A stretch of DNA of 15,832 nucleotides from Candidatus Cloacimonadota bacterium (lineage in GTDB: Bacteria; Cloacimonadota; Cloacimonadia; Cloacimonadales; TCS61), in the NCBI GenBank assembly GCA_030445745.1, contig JASUTE010000029.1, positions 1-15,832 on the forward strand, read 5' to 3'. Under the pieces are notes generated by a model that was given only the letters and a program-made list of their open reading frames with translations, had not been told where the DNA came from and made no database searches. The position numbers were made by a program, and so were the translations under genes. Positions 4,086 to 15,832 of this stretch are shown one piece after another (positions within the stretch are counted from its first letter, which is position 1; every line of letters starts with the position of its first letter).

Positions 4086-6005
4086 TTATTTTTTGCTTTT
4101 TATTTCCTTTTGTAATTCAGAGATAAAATCTGTAAGTGAACTGGTTCCTTGGTCACCAACTGTGTGCTTTCTAACAGAAACTGTATTGGAATTTTCTTCC
4201 TTTTCACCCACAATAAGCATATATGGAATTTTCTTTATTTCAGCTTCACGGATTTTATAACCAACTTTTTCGTTTTTATGGTCAATTTCTGACCGGATAT
4301 CATGTTGTTTTAGCTCTTTTTCCACCTGACGGGCATATTTTTCGAAATTTTCTGATATTGGAATTACCTTAACCTGCACAGGACAGAGCCACAGCGGGAA
4401 ATTACCAGCATGGTATTCAATGAGTGTACCGAAAAAGCGTTCCATGGAACCCAGCAAAGCCCGGTGTATCATATAGGGTTGGTGAGAGTTGTTATCGGCG
4501 CCAATATATTCCATATTAAATCTTTCTGGTAAGTTAAAATCGAATTGAATAGTAGAGCATTGCCAGGAGCGATTCAGGGCATCTTTAATTTTTATATCGA
4601 TCTTGGGGCCATAGAAAGCGCCACCGCCTTCATCCATAGCATATTCTATTCCCAATTTATCTAATGCTTTTTTTAGCGATAGCTGTGCTTTTTCCCATTT
4701 TTCTGGTATCCCTACAGCCTTTTCCGGTCGAGTAGAGAGAAATATCTCGAAATCTTCAAATCCGAAAGCACGTAACATTTCTAGAGAAAATTCAATGGTA
4801 TTTTCAACCTCTTCATCCAGTTGTTCAGGTGTACAAATTATATGGGCATCATCTTGGGTGAATCCGCGAACACGCATCAGTCCATGCAAAGCGCCCGAAG
4901 GCTCGTAACGGTAAACTGTGCCCATCTCAGCATATTTTATTGGAAGTTCGCGATAGCTACGTTTTTCATTTTGGTAGATAGCAATGTGGAAGGGGCAGTT
5001 CATGGGTTTAATATAATATTCTTGCTCATCTATTTCCATAGGTGCGTACATGCTATCGTGGTAAAAACTAAGATGTCCACTGGTTTCCCATAATCCTGCT
5101 TTGCCTATATGCGGAGTATTCACCAGTTGGTAGTTTTCCTGAAAGTGACGCTTTTTCCAAAAATCTTCAATTATAGAGCGCATCATAGCACCATTGGGAT
5201 GCCATAGAACCAATCCAGGCCCAATTTCATCTTGAATAGAATATATATCAAGTTCTTTGCCTATTTTGCGGTGATCTCGCTTTTTTGCTTCTTCCAAATT
5301 ATGTAGATATTTTCTCAGTTCCTTTTTACTGGGAAAGCTTACTCCATAAATTCTTTGCAACATTTTGTTGTTGGAATCGCCGCGCCAATAAGCTCCGGAA
5401 GTTTTTAAAAGTTTGATTGCTTTTATTTTGCCAGTGTGCAATATATGGGGGCCTCGGCACAGATCTATAAAATTACCTTGTTTGTAAACCGAGATAGTTT
5501 CACTATCAGGAATCTCATCTAAAATCTCCAGTTTATAATCCTCACCCATTTTGCGGAATATTTGCTCAGCTTCTTTTTTGGGTAGTTCCTGACGATGATA
5601 TTCCAAGTTTTCTTTACTCAGCTCTATCATCTTGTTTTCTATTTTTTCCAAATCAGCATCGGTGAAGGGAACTTCTTTATCGAAATCGTAATAAAAACCA
5701 GTTTCGATAGCAGGTCCGATGGTAACTTTAACATCGGGGAAAAGTTCTTTTACAGCTTGAGCCATTAAATGGGCGGTGCTATGCCAATAAACTTCGCGGC
5801 CTTCTGCGCTGTTGAACTTATATAAAACTATTTTTGCATCCTGGTTGAGAGGATGATTTAAATCTACCAATTTTCCATTTACTCTAGCGGTAATTATCTG
5901 CTTTGCTAATCCTTGACTTATATCTTCTGCTATTTTTTGGGGGGTAATTCCACTTTCATATTTTTTTTTGGAATTATCTGGGAAAGTAATTTCTATTTTA
6001 CTCAT
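4086..6005 (-). CDS. thrS: Threonyl-tRNA synthetase
   Basis: A 639-residue class II synthetase that charges tRNA-Thr, full length for the bacterial family (about 640). Order: TGS domain (1-63); editing domain with HxxxH at His75/His79 and Cys183/His187 (CRGPH); catalytic core with RYEPSGALHGLMRVRGFTQ (366-384) and the zinc ligands Cys337 (NCPFH), His388 (DDAHI) and His514 (YMIHRALLG); and the anticodon-binding domain from about 540. All zinc and editing residues expected from the E. coli enzyme are present. The ATG directly follows the TAA of the upstream lipoprotein gene (TAAATG), and its Shine-Dalgarno AGAGG lies within that gene's last codons, so translational coupling is likely. No T-box or operator-like fold was seen in the operon leader. 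Confidence 0.98.
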   Translation of the reverse strand: MSKIEITFPDNSKKKYESGITPQKIAEDISQGLAKQIITARVNGKLVDLNHPLNQDAKIVLYKFNSAEGREVYWHSTAHLMAQAVKELFPDVKVTIGPAIETGFYYDFDKEVPFTDADLEKIENKMIELSKENLEYHRQELPKKEAEQIFRKMGEDYKLEILDEIPDSETISVYKQGNFIDLCRGPHILHTGKIKAIKLLKTSGAYWRGDSNNKMLQRIYGVSFPSKKELRKYLHNLEEAKKRDHRKIGKELDIYSIQDEIGPGLVLWHPNGAMMRSIIEDFWKKRHFQENYQLVNTPHIGKAGLWETSGHLSFYHDSMYAPMEIDEQEYYIKPMNCPFHIAIYQNEKRSYRELPIKYAEMGTVYRYEPSGALHGLMRVRGFTQDDAHIICTPEQLDEEVENTIEFSLEMLRAFGFEDFEIFLSTRPEKAVGIPEKWEKAQLSLKKALDKLGIEYAMDEGGGAFYGPKIDIKIKDALNRSWQCSTIQFDFNLPERFNMEYIGADNNSHQPYMIHRALLGSMERFFGTLIEYHAGNFPLWLCPVQVKVIPISENFEKYARQVEKELKQHDIRSEIDHKNEKVGYKIREAEIKKIPYMLIVGEKEENSNTVSVRKHTVGDQGTSSLTDFISELQKEIKSKK

Positions 6006-7331
6006 TTATCCTCTTAACTCTATTTTATCTTCTTCTTTCTCTTTTTCTCTTTTTTTAATCATTTTTTCTATTTTTTCGGCTGCATTATCCAAAGCTTCTT
6101 TTGGTTCTAAGATACCCCGGATAACTTTTTCTAGAACTTGTTCTTCCATGTATTTACGCGTTTCGAACCATTCACTAATTTGTGGTTCATAGGTAGCATA
6201 ATTTAGCTGGTCGTACACAGATGCTATCTCTGGTTTGTCTTTTAACCTAGCGGCCAAAGCTGGTTCTTTTATCGCTGATTTTCGGACTGGCATATAATAT
6301 GTCATCTCGCTCCACCAAGCAGTTTGAGCTGTATCTGTGAACCATTTCACAAATTCCCAAGCAGCCCATTCCTTCTTCTCGTCTTTGGTTTTAAATATTA
6401 CCACATTAGTGCCGCTAATAATGTTTCGTTTTGTTCTGTAAACTGGAATAGCGGCAATTCCCATATTAAAATCCACTCCAGTACGCTGCATATAGGCTAA
6501 AGAGACACTAGAATCTTCGTACATGGCAACTTTGCTAGCTGTAAATTCTTTTTGACCTTCATATCCGGGAGTTAAGTATCCAGTTTTATCTTTATTTAAA
6601 ATAGTGGTGATAAAATTTAAGGCTTCTATACCATATTTACTGTTGAACAAGGCTTTAGTATTATCCTCATTCATTATTTCTCCACCAGCTTGCAGCAACA
6701 GGTTTTCAAATTGCCAGGCACTAATTTTGAAGGTAGTGCCATATTGGTCTTTTTGTCCATCTCCGTCTCTATCTTTGGTTAGTATGCGAGCATATTTGCG
6801 GAAATCTTGCCAAGTTACAGGTGGCTGATTGGGTTCTAACTGATTTCTGAAAAACAAATCTTTATTATAATATAGCACCCTTACACTTTTGTTGAATGGG
6901 AATGAGATTAATTTGCCATCTATAGTATTACTGCTAATAAAAACAGGATAGAAATCATCCAAGTCTTCTTGACCAAAATTTGGATCTTTTTTTATGAAAT
7001 CTTCCATAGGCTTTAGAACATCACCTTTGGCCATATTAGATGTCCAGGCTTCAAAAGCTTGAGCAATATCAGGTTGATTGCCGGTTTGAATGGAAGCCAT
7101 CAGCTTTTGGGAGAGTGCTGTGTAATTTCCCATGTTTATGGATTTCACGTTAATATTGGGGTGAGTTTCATTGAATTTTTGTATCAAATTACCTAGAGCA
7201 TCGCCCAAGGGACCGCCCATGGCTTGCCAAAAAACTATTTCGGTAACATCTTCACCTTTTTGTTTATTTTTGCTTCCACAGCCACTTAATAACAGCGGCA
7301 GCAAGACAACGATCAATAATAGCTTTTTCAT
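6006..7331 (-). CDS. ABC transporter solute-binding lipoprotein, family 1 (sugar type)
   Basis: A 441-residue extracytoplasmic binding protein of the MalE/UgpB kind (SBP_bac_1). The first 17 residues are a lipoprotein signal with lipobox LLSGC (Cys18), so it should be lipid-anchored. The mature part starts with EIVFWQAMGGPLGDALGNLI, typical of the family. It has an aspartate-rich loop DRDGDGQKDQYG as in related sugar binders, and near the C-terminus the hinge-region pattern WAAWEFVKWFTDTAQTAWW. The final 25 residues are unusually rich in Lys and Glu. No permease or ATPase gene is adjacent, so the rest of the transporter must be elsewhere and the substrate cannot be named. It is first in the operon, with AAGGAAGA about 10 bases before the ATG, and abuts thrS with zero spacing. 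Confidence 0.9.
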   Translation of the reverse strand: MKKLLLIVVLLPLLLSGCGSKNKQKGEDVTEIVFWQAMGGPLGDALGNLIQKFNETHPNINVKSINMGNYTALSQKLMASIQTGNQPDIAQAFEAWTSNMAKGDVLKPMEDFIKKDPNFGQEDLDDFYPVFISSNTIDGKLISFPFNKSVRVLYYNKDLFFRNQLEPNQPPVTWQDFRKYARILTKDRDGDGQKDQYGTTFKISAWQFENLLLQAGGEIMNEDNTKALFNSKYGIEALNFITTILNKDKTGYLTPGYEGQKEFTASKVAMYEDSSVSLAYMQRTGVDFNMGIAAIPVYRTKRNIISGTNVVIFKTKDEKKEWAAWEFVKWFTDTAQTAWWSEMTYYMPVRKSAIKEPALAARLKDKPEIASVYDQLNYATYEPQISEWFETRKYMEEQVLEKVIRGILEPKEALDNAAEKIEKMIKKREKEKEEDKIELRG

Positions 7332-10640: not shown

Positions 10641-11549
10641 ATGAGAAAGAATAATAAAATCGTCATTTTAGCAGGTGGAAATTCTACTGAGCGGGAAGTT
10701 TCTTTGGAATCTTCAGCGCAAATAGCCAAAAATTTATCACACTATGAAACATTTATGTTAGATCCTGGTGTCTTTGTAGATTATTGCCATTTGATAAAAG
10801 AGATTAAACGCATCGACCCACTAATAGTTTTCAACGGATTACATGGAGCAGAAGGAGAAGATGGGCGGCTGCAAGCACTTTTTGAATTAGAAAACATTCC
10901 TTTTACTGGGTCCGGTTTCCGAGCTAGTTGCATAGCAATGGATAAAATAGTAAGTCATAAACTGGCAGCACAAATAGGTTTAAAAATTCCTAACTATGTA
11001 ATTTTGGGAAAAAACGATAAGCAGGATTTGGGGAAAATTAGTTTACCCATGGTGGTAAAACCAAATAATTCTGGTTCTTCCGTAGGTATAACTATCGTGC
11101 AAAGTGAAATTGAATTGGAAAAAGCTATTCAAAACGCTTTCCAATATTCTGAGAAAATTATATGTGAAAAATATATAGCTGGACGAGAATTAACTGTAAC
11201 TGTTTTAGACGATACAGCTTTACCAGTTGTGGAAATAAAACCCAAAAATGGTTGGTACGATTTTAATAACAAATATACACACGGAAACACCATATACCAA
11301 GTGCCAGCTAAGTTAAATACTGCTGAATCCGCAAGAATACAAGAACAAGCATTGGCTATCTATGAATTGATGGAATGTAGAAGCTATGCTAGGGTGGATT
11401 TCAGATACGACGGTAAAGAGTTTTATTTTTTGGAAGTTAACACCTTGCCTGGAATGACAGAACTTAGCCTTACTCCTATGGCTGCTGCTGAAGCGGGCTA
11501 CAATTTCGAAGAACTTTTAGAAAAGATTATCGCCACTTCCCTAAAATAA
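10641..11549 (+). CDS. ddl: D-alanine--D-alanine ligase
   Basis: A cytoplasmic ATP-grasp enzyme that joins two D-alanines for the peptidoglycan precursor. The 302 residues fit the DdlB-type length. Motifs in order: AGGNSTEREVSLES (11-24, with Glu17 for the first D-Ala); FNGLHGAEGEDGRLQ (64-78); the ATP-grasp strand PMVVKPNNSGSSVGITIV (136-153); CEKYIAGRELTVTVL; the omega-loop region WYDFNNKYTHGN (205-216); and the Mg-binding RVDFRYDG...FLEVNTLPGMTELS (251-276). The ATG lacks a Shine-Dalgarno sequence, although the N-terminal motif leaves no better start. It is the first gene of an operon with two exported proteins, 13 bp and 11 bp apart, linking cell-wall synthesis to an envelope-facing set. 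Confidence 0.97.
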   Translation: MRKNNKIVILAGGNSTEREVSLESSAQIAKNLSHYETFMLDPGVFVDYCHLIKEIKRIDPLIVFNGLHGAEGEDGRLQALFELENIPFTGSGFRASCIAMDKIVSHKLAAQIGLKIPNYVILGKNDKQDLGKISLPMVVKPNNSGSSVGITIVQSEIELEKAIQNAFQYSEKIICEKYIAGRELTVTVLDDTALPVVEIKPKNGWYDFNNKYTHGNTIYQVPAKLNTAESARIQEQALAIYELMECRSYARVDFRYDGKEFYFLEVNTLPGMTELSLTPMAAAEAGYNFEELLEKIIATSLK

Positions 11550-11562
11550 AAAAGGGGGTTAT

Positions 11563-12663
11563 ATGAAAAAAAGTATATTTGTTTTATTTATTTTTATTTG
11601 TGGTAGTTTGTTCTCAGATTTTTATCCTTATAAGTTGGATTTTGCAATGCAACCACCTTTTTCTAATAATGCAACTTTCAATATTTTCCAACCCTCTTTT
11701 TTTGAAGACTATGATCCGCAATCTGCAAGCACACAACCGATCTTGTTTACTGTTTCCATACAAAATGTCGCTACCGAATTTCAGGATTACGAAATTTTAT
11801 TCAATATGCGCTGGCGCGATTTATATGCCGATGCTATTTTAACTCCCACTACCCAAGAACCTGTTCCCGGACAAATTATCCGTCTTACCAATCGCGATAT
11901 TTTAACTGATAGTAATTCTGCAAGTTATGAGATAGATAAAAACTTTGATGATGTATTAAAGGAAATGGAGGATATTATACAGGAAACTGGTCATATGCCT
12001 GATGGCAGCTATTTTTTTAGCATACAAGCTTTTGAACCAGGACATTTAGGTGAGGAAGAAAGAGCTCTTTCCAATATCGAAACACTTACGATTAATGTGA
12101 ATTCTCCCACACCAATTTCGCTAATTACTCCGGGAAACTCACTGGATATGGGACCTGCCAAAATCCAAGATACACAGCCCAGTTTTGTTTGGGTTTCCAA
12201 CCTTTCCCAATATCGCCTTAAAATTTATGAAACCGAGTTAACAGCGACGAACGAAGCTGAAATTGTGGCTACAGAGCCTTATTTTGAAGAGAGTAATATT
12301 ACCGGAACTAGCTATTTGTATCCAGATTCAGCACCAAAATTGCAACCGGGCTATACTTATGCTTGGCAGGTAGAGGCACCTTTAAGTACACTTGGTAGCA
12401 ATGCAGAAACTTTGAAAAGTGAACTTTATGTTTTCACTATCGCAAGTAATTATGATTTAACTCCCCAAGCTATGCAGCTTTACAATTTTATTGAGCAACT
12501 GGATATAGCTAACAAAGACCAGGTTTTACAACTTCTGCAGCGGGGCTATAAACCTGGTAAAATTTCCCTAAACGGGAAGGAAATAGCAATTTCGGAATTG
12601 AGGCAGATCTTACAAAAAACACAAACTGGACAGATCGAGATCAAGAATGTAACAGTAGAATAA
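11563..12663 (+). CDS. Secreted protein with a fibronectin-III-like region, function unknown
   Basis: A 366-residue exported protein. Residues 1-18 are a signal peptide (two Lys, hydrophobic core FVLFIFICGSLF, then Ser). No lipobox is evident, so it should be periplasmic or loosely surface-bound. Residues about 180-292 look like an FN3/Ig-like beta-sandwich: SPTPISLITPGNS, then QPSFVWVSNLSQYRLKIYE, LQPGYTYAWQVEAP and SELYVFTI, the usual order of FN3 strands. The N-terminal half (20-175) is Asn/Asp/Thr-rich with no family I recognise. The C-terminus is a charged helical tail (VLQLLQRGYKPGKISLNGK). GGGGG precedes the ATG as ribosome site. It sits between ddl and a FecR-domain gene, suggesting a shared envelope role. 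No enzymatic motif is seen. Confidence 0.85.
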   Translation: MKKSIFVLFIFICGSLFSDFYPYKLDFAMQPPFSNNATFNIFQPSFFEDYDPQSASTQPILFTVSIQNVATEFQDYEILFNMRWRDLYADAILTPTTQEPVPGQIIRLTNRDILTDSNSASYEIDKNFDDVLKEMEDIIQETGHMPDGSYFFSIQAFEPGHLGEEERALSNIETLTINVNSPTPISLITPGNSLDMGPAKIQDTQPSFVWVSNLSQYRLKIYETELTATNEAEIVATEPYFEESNITGTSYLYPDSAPKLQPGYTYAWQVEAPLSTLGSNAETLKSELYVFTIASNYDLTPQAMQLYNFIEQLDIANKDQVLQLLQRGYKPGKISLNGKEIAISELRQILQKTQTGQIEIKNVTVE

Positions 12664-12674
12664 GGGGGAGAGGT

Positions 12675-13337
12675 ATGTTAAAAAAAGCTTTCATTTTTCT
12701 ATTTTTTATCTTCAATCTATTAACAGCACAAGACTACATTGCTTTAGCAACAAAATCGGAAGGCGATGTGGTTTGGGAACGTGGAGAAGAGAAAACCGAT
12801 TTGAAAACGGGTTCCAAATTAATTAATGGAGACATTCTGGTAAGTAAAAAAGATTCCTATGCTGCTATAAAATTCATAGATGGAAGTTCTGTTGTGAAAC
12901 TTTTTGCCAATAGTAATTTGCGGTTAAACACAAATGGAGAAGATGAACATTTGAATAAATACTGTTTTCTGGAAATGGGTAATTTGTGGACAGCAGTGAA
13001 ACAAAAAACTGGAATCTTTGAAATAGAAACACCGACTACAGTAGTTTCGGTGCAAGGTACGGAATTTGTAGTAAATGTAATAGAGGAAGGAGTAACTTTG
13101 GTTCATGCGCTAAAGGGGCAAGTAGCCGTGAAAAGCAAGTTTAATGACGAAGAAATAATTTTGCCAGCTGACAAAACTGCTAAAGTCGCTGCTAATGAAG
13201 AACTGCAGGTAAGAAAAACCCGAGAAGATGACATTTCCGATGATATAAAGCAGGAAACTGCTGTAAAAAATATCAAAATTGAACTGGAAAATGAAGCTGG
13301 TGAGAAAAAAACTATTAAAATCGAATATGAAGACTAA
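12675..13337 (+). CDS. Exported FecR-domain protein
   Basis: A 220-residue secreted protein. Residues 1-18 form a signal peptide (LKKAFIFLFFIFNLLTAQ). Residues about 45-155 match the FecR fold: GSKLINGDILVSKKDSYAAI, FIDGSSVVKLFANSNLRL, FLEMGNLWTAVKQ, then IETPTTVVSVQGTEFVVNV, the strongest FecR signature (TPTxVxxVxGTEF), and LVHALKGQVAV. The acidic/basic C-terminal tail has no fold I recognise. It lacks the cytoplasmic segment and membrane helix of a true FecR anti-sigma regulator, and no sigma factor or TonB receptor is nearby, so it is probably a sensing or structural domain instead. GGGGGAGAGG precedes the ATG. It is co-transcribed with the FN3-like gene (11 bp gap) and lies upstream of the CHASE2 cyclase. 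Confidence 0.9.
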   Translation: MLKKAFIFLFFIFNLLTAQDYIALATKSEGDVVWERGEEKTDLKTGSKLINGDILVSKKDSYAAIKFIDGSSVVKLFANSNLRLNTNGEDEHLNKYCFLEMGNLWTAVKQKTGIFEIETPTTVVSVQGTEFVVNVIEEGVTLVHALKGQVAVKSKFNDEEIILPADKTAKVAANEELQVRKTREDDISDDIKQETAVKNIKIELENEAGEKKTIKIEYED

Positions 13338-13616
13338 GTTTATTGTTTTCCCGATTTCGATGAATATGCAAAAAGCAGCAGCAAGCAGTAACATGAAATT
13401 CCAAGTTGGAATAACTAACAAAAGGAATCCCAAAACTACTACCTGTGCGGACAGTTCAGAAAGTTGTATTGAACAGACTTCCTATAATTATGTATTATAG
13501 GAATTATTGGAAGACGATATGAGAGAAATAGGAACATTTTTTTCGGTTACGGTTAATTTTATAAGATTGTATAAAACAGCAGAGAATATACAGTAATACA
13601 AATTTTAGGAGATGAT
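13338..13616 (+). other. 279-bp gap between fecR-like gene and cyclase, with hairpin
   Basis: The gap holds no convincing gene. A perfect AT-rich hairpin with 10-bp arms lies at 13479-13488 and 13494-13503 (loop TATGT); it has no T-tract, so it is a weak terminator or a regulator site. A 46-codon frame (13360-13500) ending in Cys/Ser/Thr-rich residues has no ribosome site. A 25-codon frame from 13519 has GGAAG nearby. The cyclase's own site TTAGGAGATGAT lies at the end of the gap. Weak TATAAA sequences around 13570 have no good -35, so I do not call a promoter. Confidence 0.5.
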
Positions 13617-15494
13617 ATGAAATTTTTAAGATTTATTTTTTTGGCAATTCTGTTGGTGGTGTTGGTTATTTTGTTCTCATCGACCAGTTTTTGGCAAAAT
13701 ATGGAATATAGAGCTCGTGATTTGTTTTTTATGTTTAGGGGAGAGCGAGCTACATCTGAAGAAATAGTTTTAGTTGAAATTAGTGACGACACCATTAATT
13801 CATTAGGAAAAAAATGGCCGTTTCCCCAAAAATACCACGCTAAAGTGATAGATAATTTGTTTAAAGCTGGTGCCAAGCAGGTTATTTTCGAAGTTACCTT
13901 GTCCGCAAAATCTACTAACAAGCAAGATTCGCTGTTGGTTGCTGCCAGTAAGCATAGGAATGTGGTATTTGCTGGAAAATTGCTTCCGAACTTAACAGAA
14001 AAAAAGGGAAATAAGCAAGTTTTAAAGCCTACTTCTGCTATCTTGCAAACTACGTCTCAATGGGGATTAGCAAATATTCCCATAGATACTGATGGATTTG
14101 TTAGAAGATATCAACTTTACGAGAAAATTGCAGGGAAAAATTATTATTCTCTGGGTGTAGTTGCTCGGGCTGGGATAAATGGAAACGAGAATTGGAGACA
14201 AAATATTAATGACAGAAGTCGTTATTTCGAGCTTGATAATATTTTCATTCCCAAAGCTACTTCCCAAACAGCGTATATTAACTATTTTGGACCGGCCGGT
14301 ACCTTCCCATATTATGATTATGCTGATGTGATTGATGATGCAGATTTTAAACTCCCTGTTTTAGATACAAACAAATATGAACAACTGAAAAAAGATGAAG
14401 TATTCAAAGATAAGATCGTAATTGTTGGTGTCACTGCAGAGGAGCTAAACGATTACTTTAATACTCCATTTTTAACAGATAATAACAAAATGACACCGGG
14501 TATAGAGATCCATGCTAATTTTTTGGAGATGGTAAATCAGGAAAAATTCCTTAAAGAACTGCATTTTATAAAATTTGTTTTTGTAATGTTTGTTTTGGCC
14601 GTATTGCTTATGCTAGTTAACCGGATCTTAAAGCCGTTACCATCCTTGATAGTTAATTTAGTGCTAATCGCAGTTTCCTTTTTTGTTATTTACAATTTAT
14701 TCGTACAAAGTAACCTGATTATACCGATTTTGCCAATACCAGTGTTGATAGTTTTAATTTACATAGTTTGCTTGGTAGTGCACTATTTTAAAGTAAATCG
14801 TGAAAAAGCTTTTATCCGTGCTGCTTTTTCCAAAAATATGGCTCCAGAATTGGTAGAGGAATTGGGAAAAAATCCGTCAAAATTAGAATTGGGGGGTCAA
14901 CAAAAAGAGATAACGGTTCTGTTTACCAATATTCGTTCTTTTACCAGCTATGCCGAAAAACACAATCCCAAAGAAACTACAGGTATTTTGCGGGAATATT
15001 TGAATGAGATAACGGCTATTATCAAGCTAAATAAAGGAATAGTAGATAAATATGTGGGCGATGAAGTAGTGTCATTATTTGGAATTCCGCTAGATCTGCC
15101 AGACCATGCTTTTTGGGCTTGCAAAGCAGCTTTGGAAATTAGAGAAAAAGTGTTAGAATTACAACAAAAATGGCAAGCTAAAAAACTCGATATAATTGAA
15201 ATTGGTTCAGGAATAAATAGTGGTTTTGCCATTGTAGGAAATTTGGGCTCAGATACTATCTTCGATTATACCGCAATTGGCGATACTGTAAGTGTTGGTT
15301 CCAGATTGGAAGAACTGAACAAGGTTTACGAAACGCACAATAATATTATTATAAGTGAAGCTACTTATGAGATGGTAAAAGACCGCATAATAGCCGAATT
15401 TATCGAGGAAGTTACAGTGCAGGGCAGGAATAAGCCGGTGGCTATTTATCAGTTAATAGGGATAAAAAAAGAGCTGAAAAAAGAAGAAAAATAA
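13617..15494 (+). CDS. CHASE2-domain membrane nucleotide cyclase (class III), probably altered or inactive
   Basis: A 625-residue membrane sensor. Helix 1 (about 4-22) is followed by an extracytoplasmic CHASE2 domain (about 30-315: EEIVLVEISDDTINSLGKK, KWPFPQKYHAKVIDNLFKAG, DKIVIVGVTAEELNDYFNTP). Three membrane helices (about 316-392) lead to a class III adenylate/guanylate cyclase domain (430-615). Preserved catalytic residues: Lys478 and Asp482 (DKYVGDEV), Thr552 (DYTAIGD) and Arg563 (SRLEEL). Two are replaced: Asn438 stands where the first metal-binding Asp belongs (LFTNIRSFTS), and Ser559 where the transition-state Asn belongs (DTVSVGSR). By family knowledge both losses should strongly reduce cyclase activity. 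TTAGGAGATGAT gives a good ribosome site. It follows the FN3-like and FecR-domain genes. If active, the product would be cAMP, judging by Lys478/Thr552. Confidence 0.93.
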   Translation: MKFLRFIFLAILLVVLVILFSSTSFWQNMEYRARDLFFMFRGERATSEEIVLVEISDDTINSLGKKWPFPQKYHAKVIDNLFKAGAKQVIFEVTLSAKSTNKQDSLLVAASKHRNVVFAGKLLPNLTEKKGNKQVLKPTSAILQTTSQWGLANIPIDTDGFVRRYQLYEKIAGKNYYSLGVVARAGINGNENWRQNINDRSRYFELDNIFIPKATSQTAYINYFGPAGTFPYYDYADVIDDADFKLPVLDTNKYEQLKKDEVFKDKIVIVGVTAEELNDYFNTPFLTDNNKMTPGIEIHANFLEMVNQEKFLKELHFIKFVFVMFVLAVLLMLVNRILKPLPSLIVNLVLIAVSFFVIYNLFVQSNLIIPILPIPVLIVLIYIVCLVVHYFKVNREKAFIRAAFSKNMAPELVEELGKNPSKLELGGQQKEITVLFTNIRSFTSYAEKHNPKETTGILREYLNEITAIIKLNKGIVDKYVGDEVVSLFGIPLDLPDHAFWACKAALEIREKVLELQQKWQAKKLDIIEIGSGINSGFAIVGNLGSDTIFDYTAIGDTVSVGSRLEELNKVYETHNNIIISEATYEMVKDRIIAEFIEEVTVQGRNKPVAIYQLIGIKKELKKEEK

Positions 15495-15580: not shown

Positions 15581-15784
15581 GCGTCCTCTGGCGCAGGTCT
15601 CATTGTAGGAAGAAAAGTTTTAAATCTAACATTGTTGCTTTTTTAGATTTCTCCATTCCAGTAGCTTCGCTACTTCCAGTCGAAATGACAAAAAAAACTG
15701 TCATTGCGAACCCTTTATGGGTGAAGCAATCTGTAATTAAAAACATAAAGTTAATATAAGACTTTTATTAACAATTTATAGATT
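15581..15784. repeat. Right arm of the long inverted repeat
   Basis: Reverse complement of 1-180: the 64-bp outer part (15721-15784) is identical, the middle part differs at a few positions, and an insertion of about 20 bp near 15605-15645 distinguishes it from the left arm. It contains a hairpin (attgc 15703-15707, gcaat 15726-15730, inner accc/gggt, mismatched G-A flanks) and a second one (agtagc 15660-15665, gctact 15669-15674, loop ttc). Open frames through it are not genes. Confidence 0.93.
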
Positions 15785-15792
15785 ACTTCCAT

Positions 15793-15823
15793 GTGAAATG
15801 AGGGAAATTTCACCCAGTGAAAT
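15793..15823. repeat. Three alternating palindromic arms
   Basis: gtgaaat (15793-15799), atttcac (15807-15813) and gtgaaat (15817-15823) lie in a row, so the central arm can pair with either neighbour (loops of 7 and 3 bases). This is a distinct small repeat, adjacent to but outside the inverted repeat. It may be the edge of another dispersed element cut by the window end. Confidence 0.6.
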
Positions 15824-15832
15824 AGAAAAAAG

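Follow-up and report, generated by a model that had tools for sequence, protein, structure and literature searches.

The question raised by this locus is whether a CHASE2 sensor cyclase with two altered catalytic residues can still work as a cyclase and, if not, what kind of protein it has become. The window analyzed here, a stretch of 15,832 nucleotides from a Candidatus Cloacimonadota bacterium, makes up one entire contig (C5) in a 2.04-Mb genome that is assembled in 38 contigs and is 99.3% complete. The relatives identified by sequence belong to Candidatus Cloacimonadota as well. The contig probably breaks at repeats because repeat matches sit at several contig ends: its own ends carry inverted copies, 99% identical, of an interspersed repeat (1-93 and 15692-15784), and a search of the genome with the DNA at 15600-15832 gave 39 matches, of which several lie at contig ends.

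The gene under study is an open reading frame of 625 codons with no internal stops (Table 1). Its product has the architecture of a CHASE2 sensor cyclase: a CHASE2 domain, then membrane segments, then a cyclase domain. The hydrophobic segments were called by reading the sequence. The cyclase domain scores 62.3-65.7 bits on the PF00211 profile, which has a curated cut-off of 21.9, and is therefore assigned to class III. Orthologues are present in most of the Cloacimonadota genomes compared. The gene was placed in group A by its 42-50% full-length identity to most orthologues, together with a conserved neighborhood of ddl, a 366 aa protein, and a FecR-domain protein. The name ddl for the first of these is a putative assignment from the sequence. 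In a phmmer search of the cyclase domain against PDB chains, the closest relative of solved structure was Pseudomonas aeruginosa CyaB (3r5g; E 7e-34). An AlphaFold model made from the single sequence was uninformative (mean pLDDT 38).

Table 1. Features of the CHASE2-cyclase locus in the window
Feature	Position	Strand	Basis or remark
D-Ala-D-Ala ligase-like gene (ddl), neighborhood anchor	10641..11549	+	synteny
366 aa predicted secreted protein, conserved neighbor	11563..12663	+	no Pfam/NCBIfam match; synteny
FecR-domain protein, conserved neighbor	12675..13337	+	Pfam PF04773; synteny
Gap at the site of the relatives' ~2.4 kb barrel gene	13338..13616	.	no remnant found
CHASE2-cyclase gene, group A	13617..15494	+	625 aa, catalytic residues lost
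CHASE2 extracytoplasmic sensor domain	13656..14564	+	Pfam PF05226, residues 14-316, E 1.5e-47
Class III nucleotide cyclase domain	14901..15458	+	Pfam PF00211 Guanylate_cyc, residues 429-613, E 5.8e-17
Codon 438 AAT (Asn), position of the first metal-ligand Asp	14928..14930	+	orthologue alignment and codon reading
Lys478 (AAA) to Asp482 (GAT): adenine-specifying Lys and second metal Asp retained	15048..15062	+	
Thr552 (ACC) to Arg563 (AGA): adenine-specifying Thr and transition-state Arg retained, Ser559 between	15270..15305	+	
Codon 559 AGT (Ser), position of the transition-state Asn	15291..15293	+	orthologue alignment and codon reading

In the same phmmer search, LFTNIRSFTS of the window protein aligned to FFSDIRGFTE of CyaB and GDTVSVGSR aligned to GREVNLASR. 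An active class III cyclase has two metal-binding Asp residues, a transition-state Asn and Arg, and a substrate-specifying pair (Lys and Thr/Asp). The last pair is complete in the window protein (Lys478 and Thr552), the metal positions hold Asn438 and Asp482, and the transition-state positions hold Ser559 and Arg563. The initial annotation had reported both substitutions and the retention of Lys478, Asp482, Thr552, and Arg563; the codons and the orthologue panel described below bear this out, and codon comparison agrees that one transition explains each change. It had also proposed that the domain may be a pseudo-cyclase, which is well supported by the sequence since the protein departs from the norm at two of the six catalytic positions and orthologues very rarely do so. 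Going by the established class III mechanism, catalytic activity has very likely been lost. Nucleotide binding by the domain is possible because Lys478, Thr552, Asp482, and Arg563 remain; the signal sink that the initial annotation also suggested would be a hypothetical role.

Searching across the phylum provided 90 family members for comparison, along with six second-group paralogues. Alignment to the orthologues, which the initial annotation had recommended, gave Asp at position 438 in 88 of the 90 members, the exceptions being the window gene (Asn) and the orthologue in genome G001 (Ser). Position 559 is Asn in 86, with Ser in the window, Thr in G001, Lys in G086, and one sequence at a contig end. 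Position 563 is likewise Arg in 86, with Asp in G001, Ser in G086, Gly in G082, and one contig end. The G001 orthologue (L046 253-2109, - strand) has changed four of the six catalytic residues, including Lys478, which is replaced by Arg. Its cyclase domain is ~40% identical to relatives that share 65-75%, and its 619 aa frame is open, which has a probability of about 0.03 under neutral drift. The G086 gene (L092) has Gly at the position of Asp482 and also lacks Asn559 and Arg563. The genes of G086 and G082 (L092 and L076) are sister orthologues that both lack Arg563; codon 563 is AGC in G086, GGC in G082, and CGC in the close relative G057, and the two may share one Arg563 loss. The pairwise dN/dS of G086 and G082 is ~0.11 for CHASE2 and ~0.20 for the cyclase, a divergence that may partly predate the losses. 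Since G001 and G086 group apart from the window gene in the tree, the gene has been broken independently in at least three lineages (the window, G001, and G086). That G001 and the G086/G082 pair broke the gene separately shows that the family tolerates loss.

The gene had been described as otherwise undamaged. This holds for the reading frame but not for the cyclase domain, in which 13 of the 63 sites conserved at ≥95% are changed, compared with a maximum of four in intact orthologues (n=82). In the CHASE2 domain, five of 39 conserved sites are changed (intact-orthologue maximum eight, 95th percentile two), and the difference between the two domains is not significant (Fisher P 0.43). The catalytic residues are not singled out, as two of the six fall among the 13 changes (P 0.36). 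Compared with random single-base changes, those in the cyclase domain are not significantly more conservative (P 0.13), and those in CHASE2 are marginally so (P 0.05). Catalytic residues that are not preferred and cyclase changes that are not conservative form the pattern expected from relaxed constraint. The terminal branch of the window gene is long in both domains, with a cyclase/CHASE2 ratio of 0.79 against a family median of 0.76. Together with the Fisher result, this ratio led us to reject a burst of change specific to the cyclase domain. The cyclase branch is 1.6 times the threonyl-tRNA synthetase (ThrRS) branch, which is within the range of intact orthologues, whereas that of G001 is 7.9 times its ThrRS branch and outside this range. 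Neutral drift of the whole gene, simulated with substitutions only and far enough to give 13 changes of this kind, left the frame stop-free in about 0.2-1% of runs, and drift of the cyclase domain alone did so in about 17-21%. These data point to a constraint on the gene that is weakened rather than absent; the two catalytic changes are perhaps recent.

The neighborhood of the gene also differs from that of its relatives. The order in most relatives examined is ddl, the 366 aa protein, FecR, a protein of ~760-845 aa, and the CHASE2 cyclase. In the window, the FecR gene ends at 13337 and the cyclase gene starts at 13617 with nothing between. Outer-membrane barrels end in Phe. The ~760-845 aa protein of the relatives has a C-terminal Phe in 18 of 18 sequences and, by eye, a signal-peptide-like N-terminal segment, and we predict that it is an outer-membrane beta-barrel. 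"Barrel" remains a prediction because the porin match in Pfam is sub-threshold only. An adjacent barrel gene is usual in group A but not universal, and the window has none: no remnant was found there, and a genome-wide search with a profile of nine barrel orthologues did not find the gene either. In Sinorhizobium meliloti, the outer-membrane barrel NsrA acts upstream of CHASE2 cyclases and is required for the signal to be perceived (PMC7529298, PMC13001267), and by this analogy it is plausible that loss of the barrel gene here is loss of signal input.

The barrel gene is also absent at the locus in G001, G002, and G011, and the rest of each genome shows no clear copy (G001 is only 73% complete). 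G002 and G011 have all six catalytic residues, whereas G086 and G082 have the barrel and broken cyclases. The association between losing the barrel and losing catalysis is only weak (Fisher P 0.053, with no correction for kinship). With G002 and G011 as counterexamples, barrel loss was rejected as the cause of catalytic loss.

The initial annotation had suggested that the protein might dimerize with another cyclase and that a second intact CHASE2 cyclase should be looked for in the genome. Apart from the window gene, the class III profile matched one sequence, a CHASE2-cyclase pseudogene on contig C16 with in-frame TAA codons (L037 about 5530-6770). Over 195 residues it shares 58% identity with the second CHASE2 cyclase that G021 encodes, and scattered CHASE2 remnants lie upstream of it. 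A tRNA-like sequence, recognized by eye, adjoins the pseudogene (L037 about 5270-5340). A search of the genome with models for CYTH and class I cyclases found none. A partner encoded in the genome is therefore unlikely, and the suggested dimer is not supported. Matches to Pycsar cyclases reported by PADLOC were set aside since they reflect the shared class III domain. One intact protein with cNMP-binding and FHA domains is encoded (L042 1006-1788, - strand), the only cNMP-domain protein above the cut-off in the genome, and its phosphate-binding cassette, GELGVIQDSPRQATV, looks canonical by eye. This protein is no proof of cAMP synthesis because Campylobacterota often retain CRP-like proteins without adenylate cyclase (PMC9239204).

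We consider it most likely that a CHASE2-cAMP pathway is collapsing in this lineage and that the gene is a remnant of it without catalysis, because the partner barrel gene is missing upstream and other lineages have broken the gene as well. In class III cyclases, the metal Asp and the Asn/Arg of an active site come from different chains (PMC4174876). The chains pair head to tail, one providing the two metal Asp residues and the other the base-specifying residues and the Asn/Arg pair. Because each active site is built from both chains, both sites of a homodimer would carry the two substitutions, Asn438 in place of the first Asp and Ser559 in place of the Asn, and cAMP synthesis would be absent or negligible. 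The catalytic loss would then be part of a lineage-specific collapse, in which the barrel gene is gone, the paralogue is pseudogenized, and no other cyclase is found. What remains would be a sensor and a cyclase-fold dimer, perhaps still binding nucleotide, from which no cAMP signal is expected. Selection on this protein would be weakened, and no new function is required. Several results count against such a collapse: the 625-codon frame is intact, which whole-gene neutral drift seldom allows; the normal cyclase/CHASE2 and cyclase/ThrRS ratios mean that the domain is not strongly accelerated; the intact cNMP-FHA protein is still encoded; and the barrel is missing beside intact cyclases (G002 and G011) and present beside a broken one (G086). 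An alternative is a retained pseudoenzyme, in which catalysis is lost and the protein has a non-catalytic job, for example as a CHASE2 receptor that signals to another protein through a nucleotide-binding dimer. We consider this possible but less probable. It would account for the open frame, the unremarkable rates, the four retained catalytic residues, and the conservative changes at conserved CHASE2 sites, as well as for the open frame of the diverged G001 gene and the low dN/dS of the G086/G082 pair, with the caveat on its timing given above. However, the conserved cyclase sites are eroded beyond those of any intact orthologue, no interaction partner was identified, and the window lineage has no genus-level relative for a test of selection; the indirect indicators of purifying selection after the catalytic loss point in different directions. 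More doubtful still is the broader idea that Cloacimonadota CHASE2 cyclases have repeatedly turned into retained non-catalytic receptors (in this genome, G001, and G086), which would signal via the dimeric nucleotide-binding fold without a second messenger.

The remaining explanations keep some catalysis or question the sequence. We take Asp300 of Rv1625c to be its second metal Asp, equivalent to position 482. The metal-Asp mutant D300A of this enzyme is inactive alone (PMC4821796), which makes it improbable that the window protein is an enzyme of altered chemistry that tolerates Asn438 and Ser559. Two catalytic roles are altered together in it, and the metal Asp is almost invariant in the family. 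On the other side, four of the six catalytic residues are intact, a cNMP-binding protein is still encoded, and other residues have been reported at the Asn position, such as His in Rv1900c and Ile in a mycobacterial set (PMC4886424). Complementing Rv1625c mutants do give active dimers (PMC4821796), and eukaryotes have class III pairs in which one partner is degenerate (PMC8815786), so the protein might be half of a heterodimer that is completed by another cyclase chain. This is very unlikely, since the genome has one pseudogene and no other intact class III cyclase to supply that chain. In addition, the metal half and the Asn/Arg half are both altered, and either site formed with an intact chain would have a defect. 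Least probable of all is that both codons result from faulty sequencing or assembly. Asp and Asn occur in almost every orthologue, and one transition would explain each change, but 11 further nearly invariant cyclase sites also differ in an intact frame, and the absence of the partner gene argues independently against an error.

The S. meliloti proteins CyaD1, CyaD2, and CyaK likewise have a CHASE2 sensor, a transmembrane segment, and a C-terminal class III cyclase (PMC13001267, PMC7529298). A link to a barrel is common to S. meliloti, through NsrA, and the Cloacimonadota relatives, through the neighbor gene, as a parallel by description. The window protein differs from these cyclases in that Asn438 and Ser559 replace the catalytic Asp and Asn and there is no barrel gene. 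The canonical Asp and Asn are also present in P. aeruginosa CyaB (3r5g), unlike the window protein. In Campylobacterota, a CHASE2 cyclase is likewise clustered with a FecR-domain gene (PMC9239204). Those clusters contain a phosphodiesterase and a TPR gene, whereas the window has ddl and the 366 aa protein and the relatives add the predicted barrel; in the passages of that study used here, the Campylobacterota cyclases are not described as broken, in contrast to the window cyclase. The pseudo-site of mammalian tmACs and mycobacterial homologues that have just one metal Asp (PMC4886424) have also kept the cyclase fold and lost catalytic residues. The tmACs have one working site that is completed by a partner domain, and the window genome encodes no such partner.

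CHASE2 cyclases, FecR-CHASE2 cyclase clusters (PMC9239204), and degenerate class III domains (PMC8815786, PMC4886424) are already known. What is new is that catalytic loss has recurred among the full-length CHASE2 cyclases of a single phylum, plus the loss of a partner gene and a paralogue pseudogene in one genome; a literature search, incomplete in coverage, found no prior account of such losses. In this family, such losses have arisen naturally in full-length proteins at least three times, each independently of the others. Intact, broken, missing partner gene, and pseudogenized paralogue form a natural series for the loss of a bacterial cAMP sensor pathway. The predicted barrel protein is suggested as a candidate partner of the CHASE2 cyclases in this phylum. 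If selection acts on any of these altered proteins, that protein would be a class III pseudo-cyclase from bacteria that functions as a receptor. The relatives have kept a signaling pathway that appears to be shutting down in the source bacterium.
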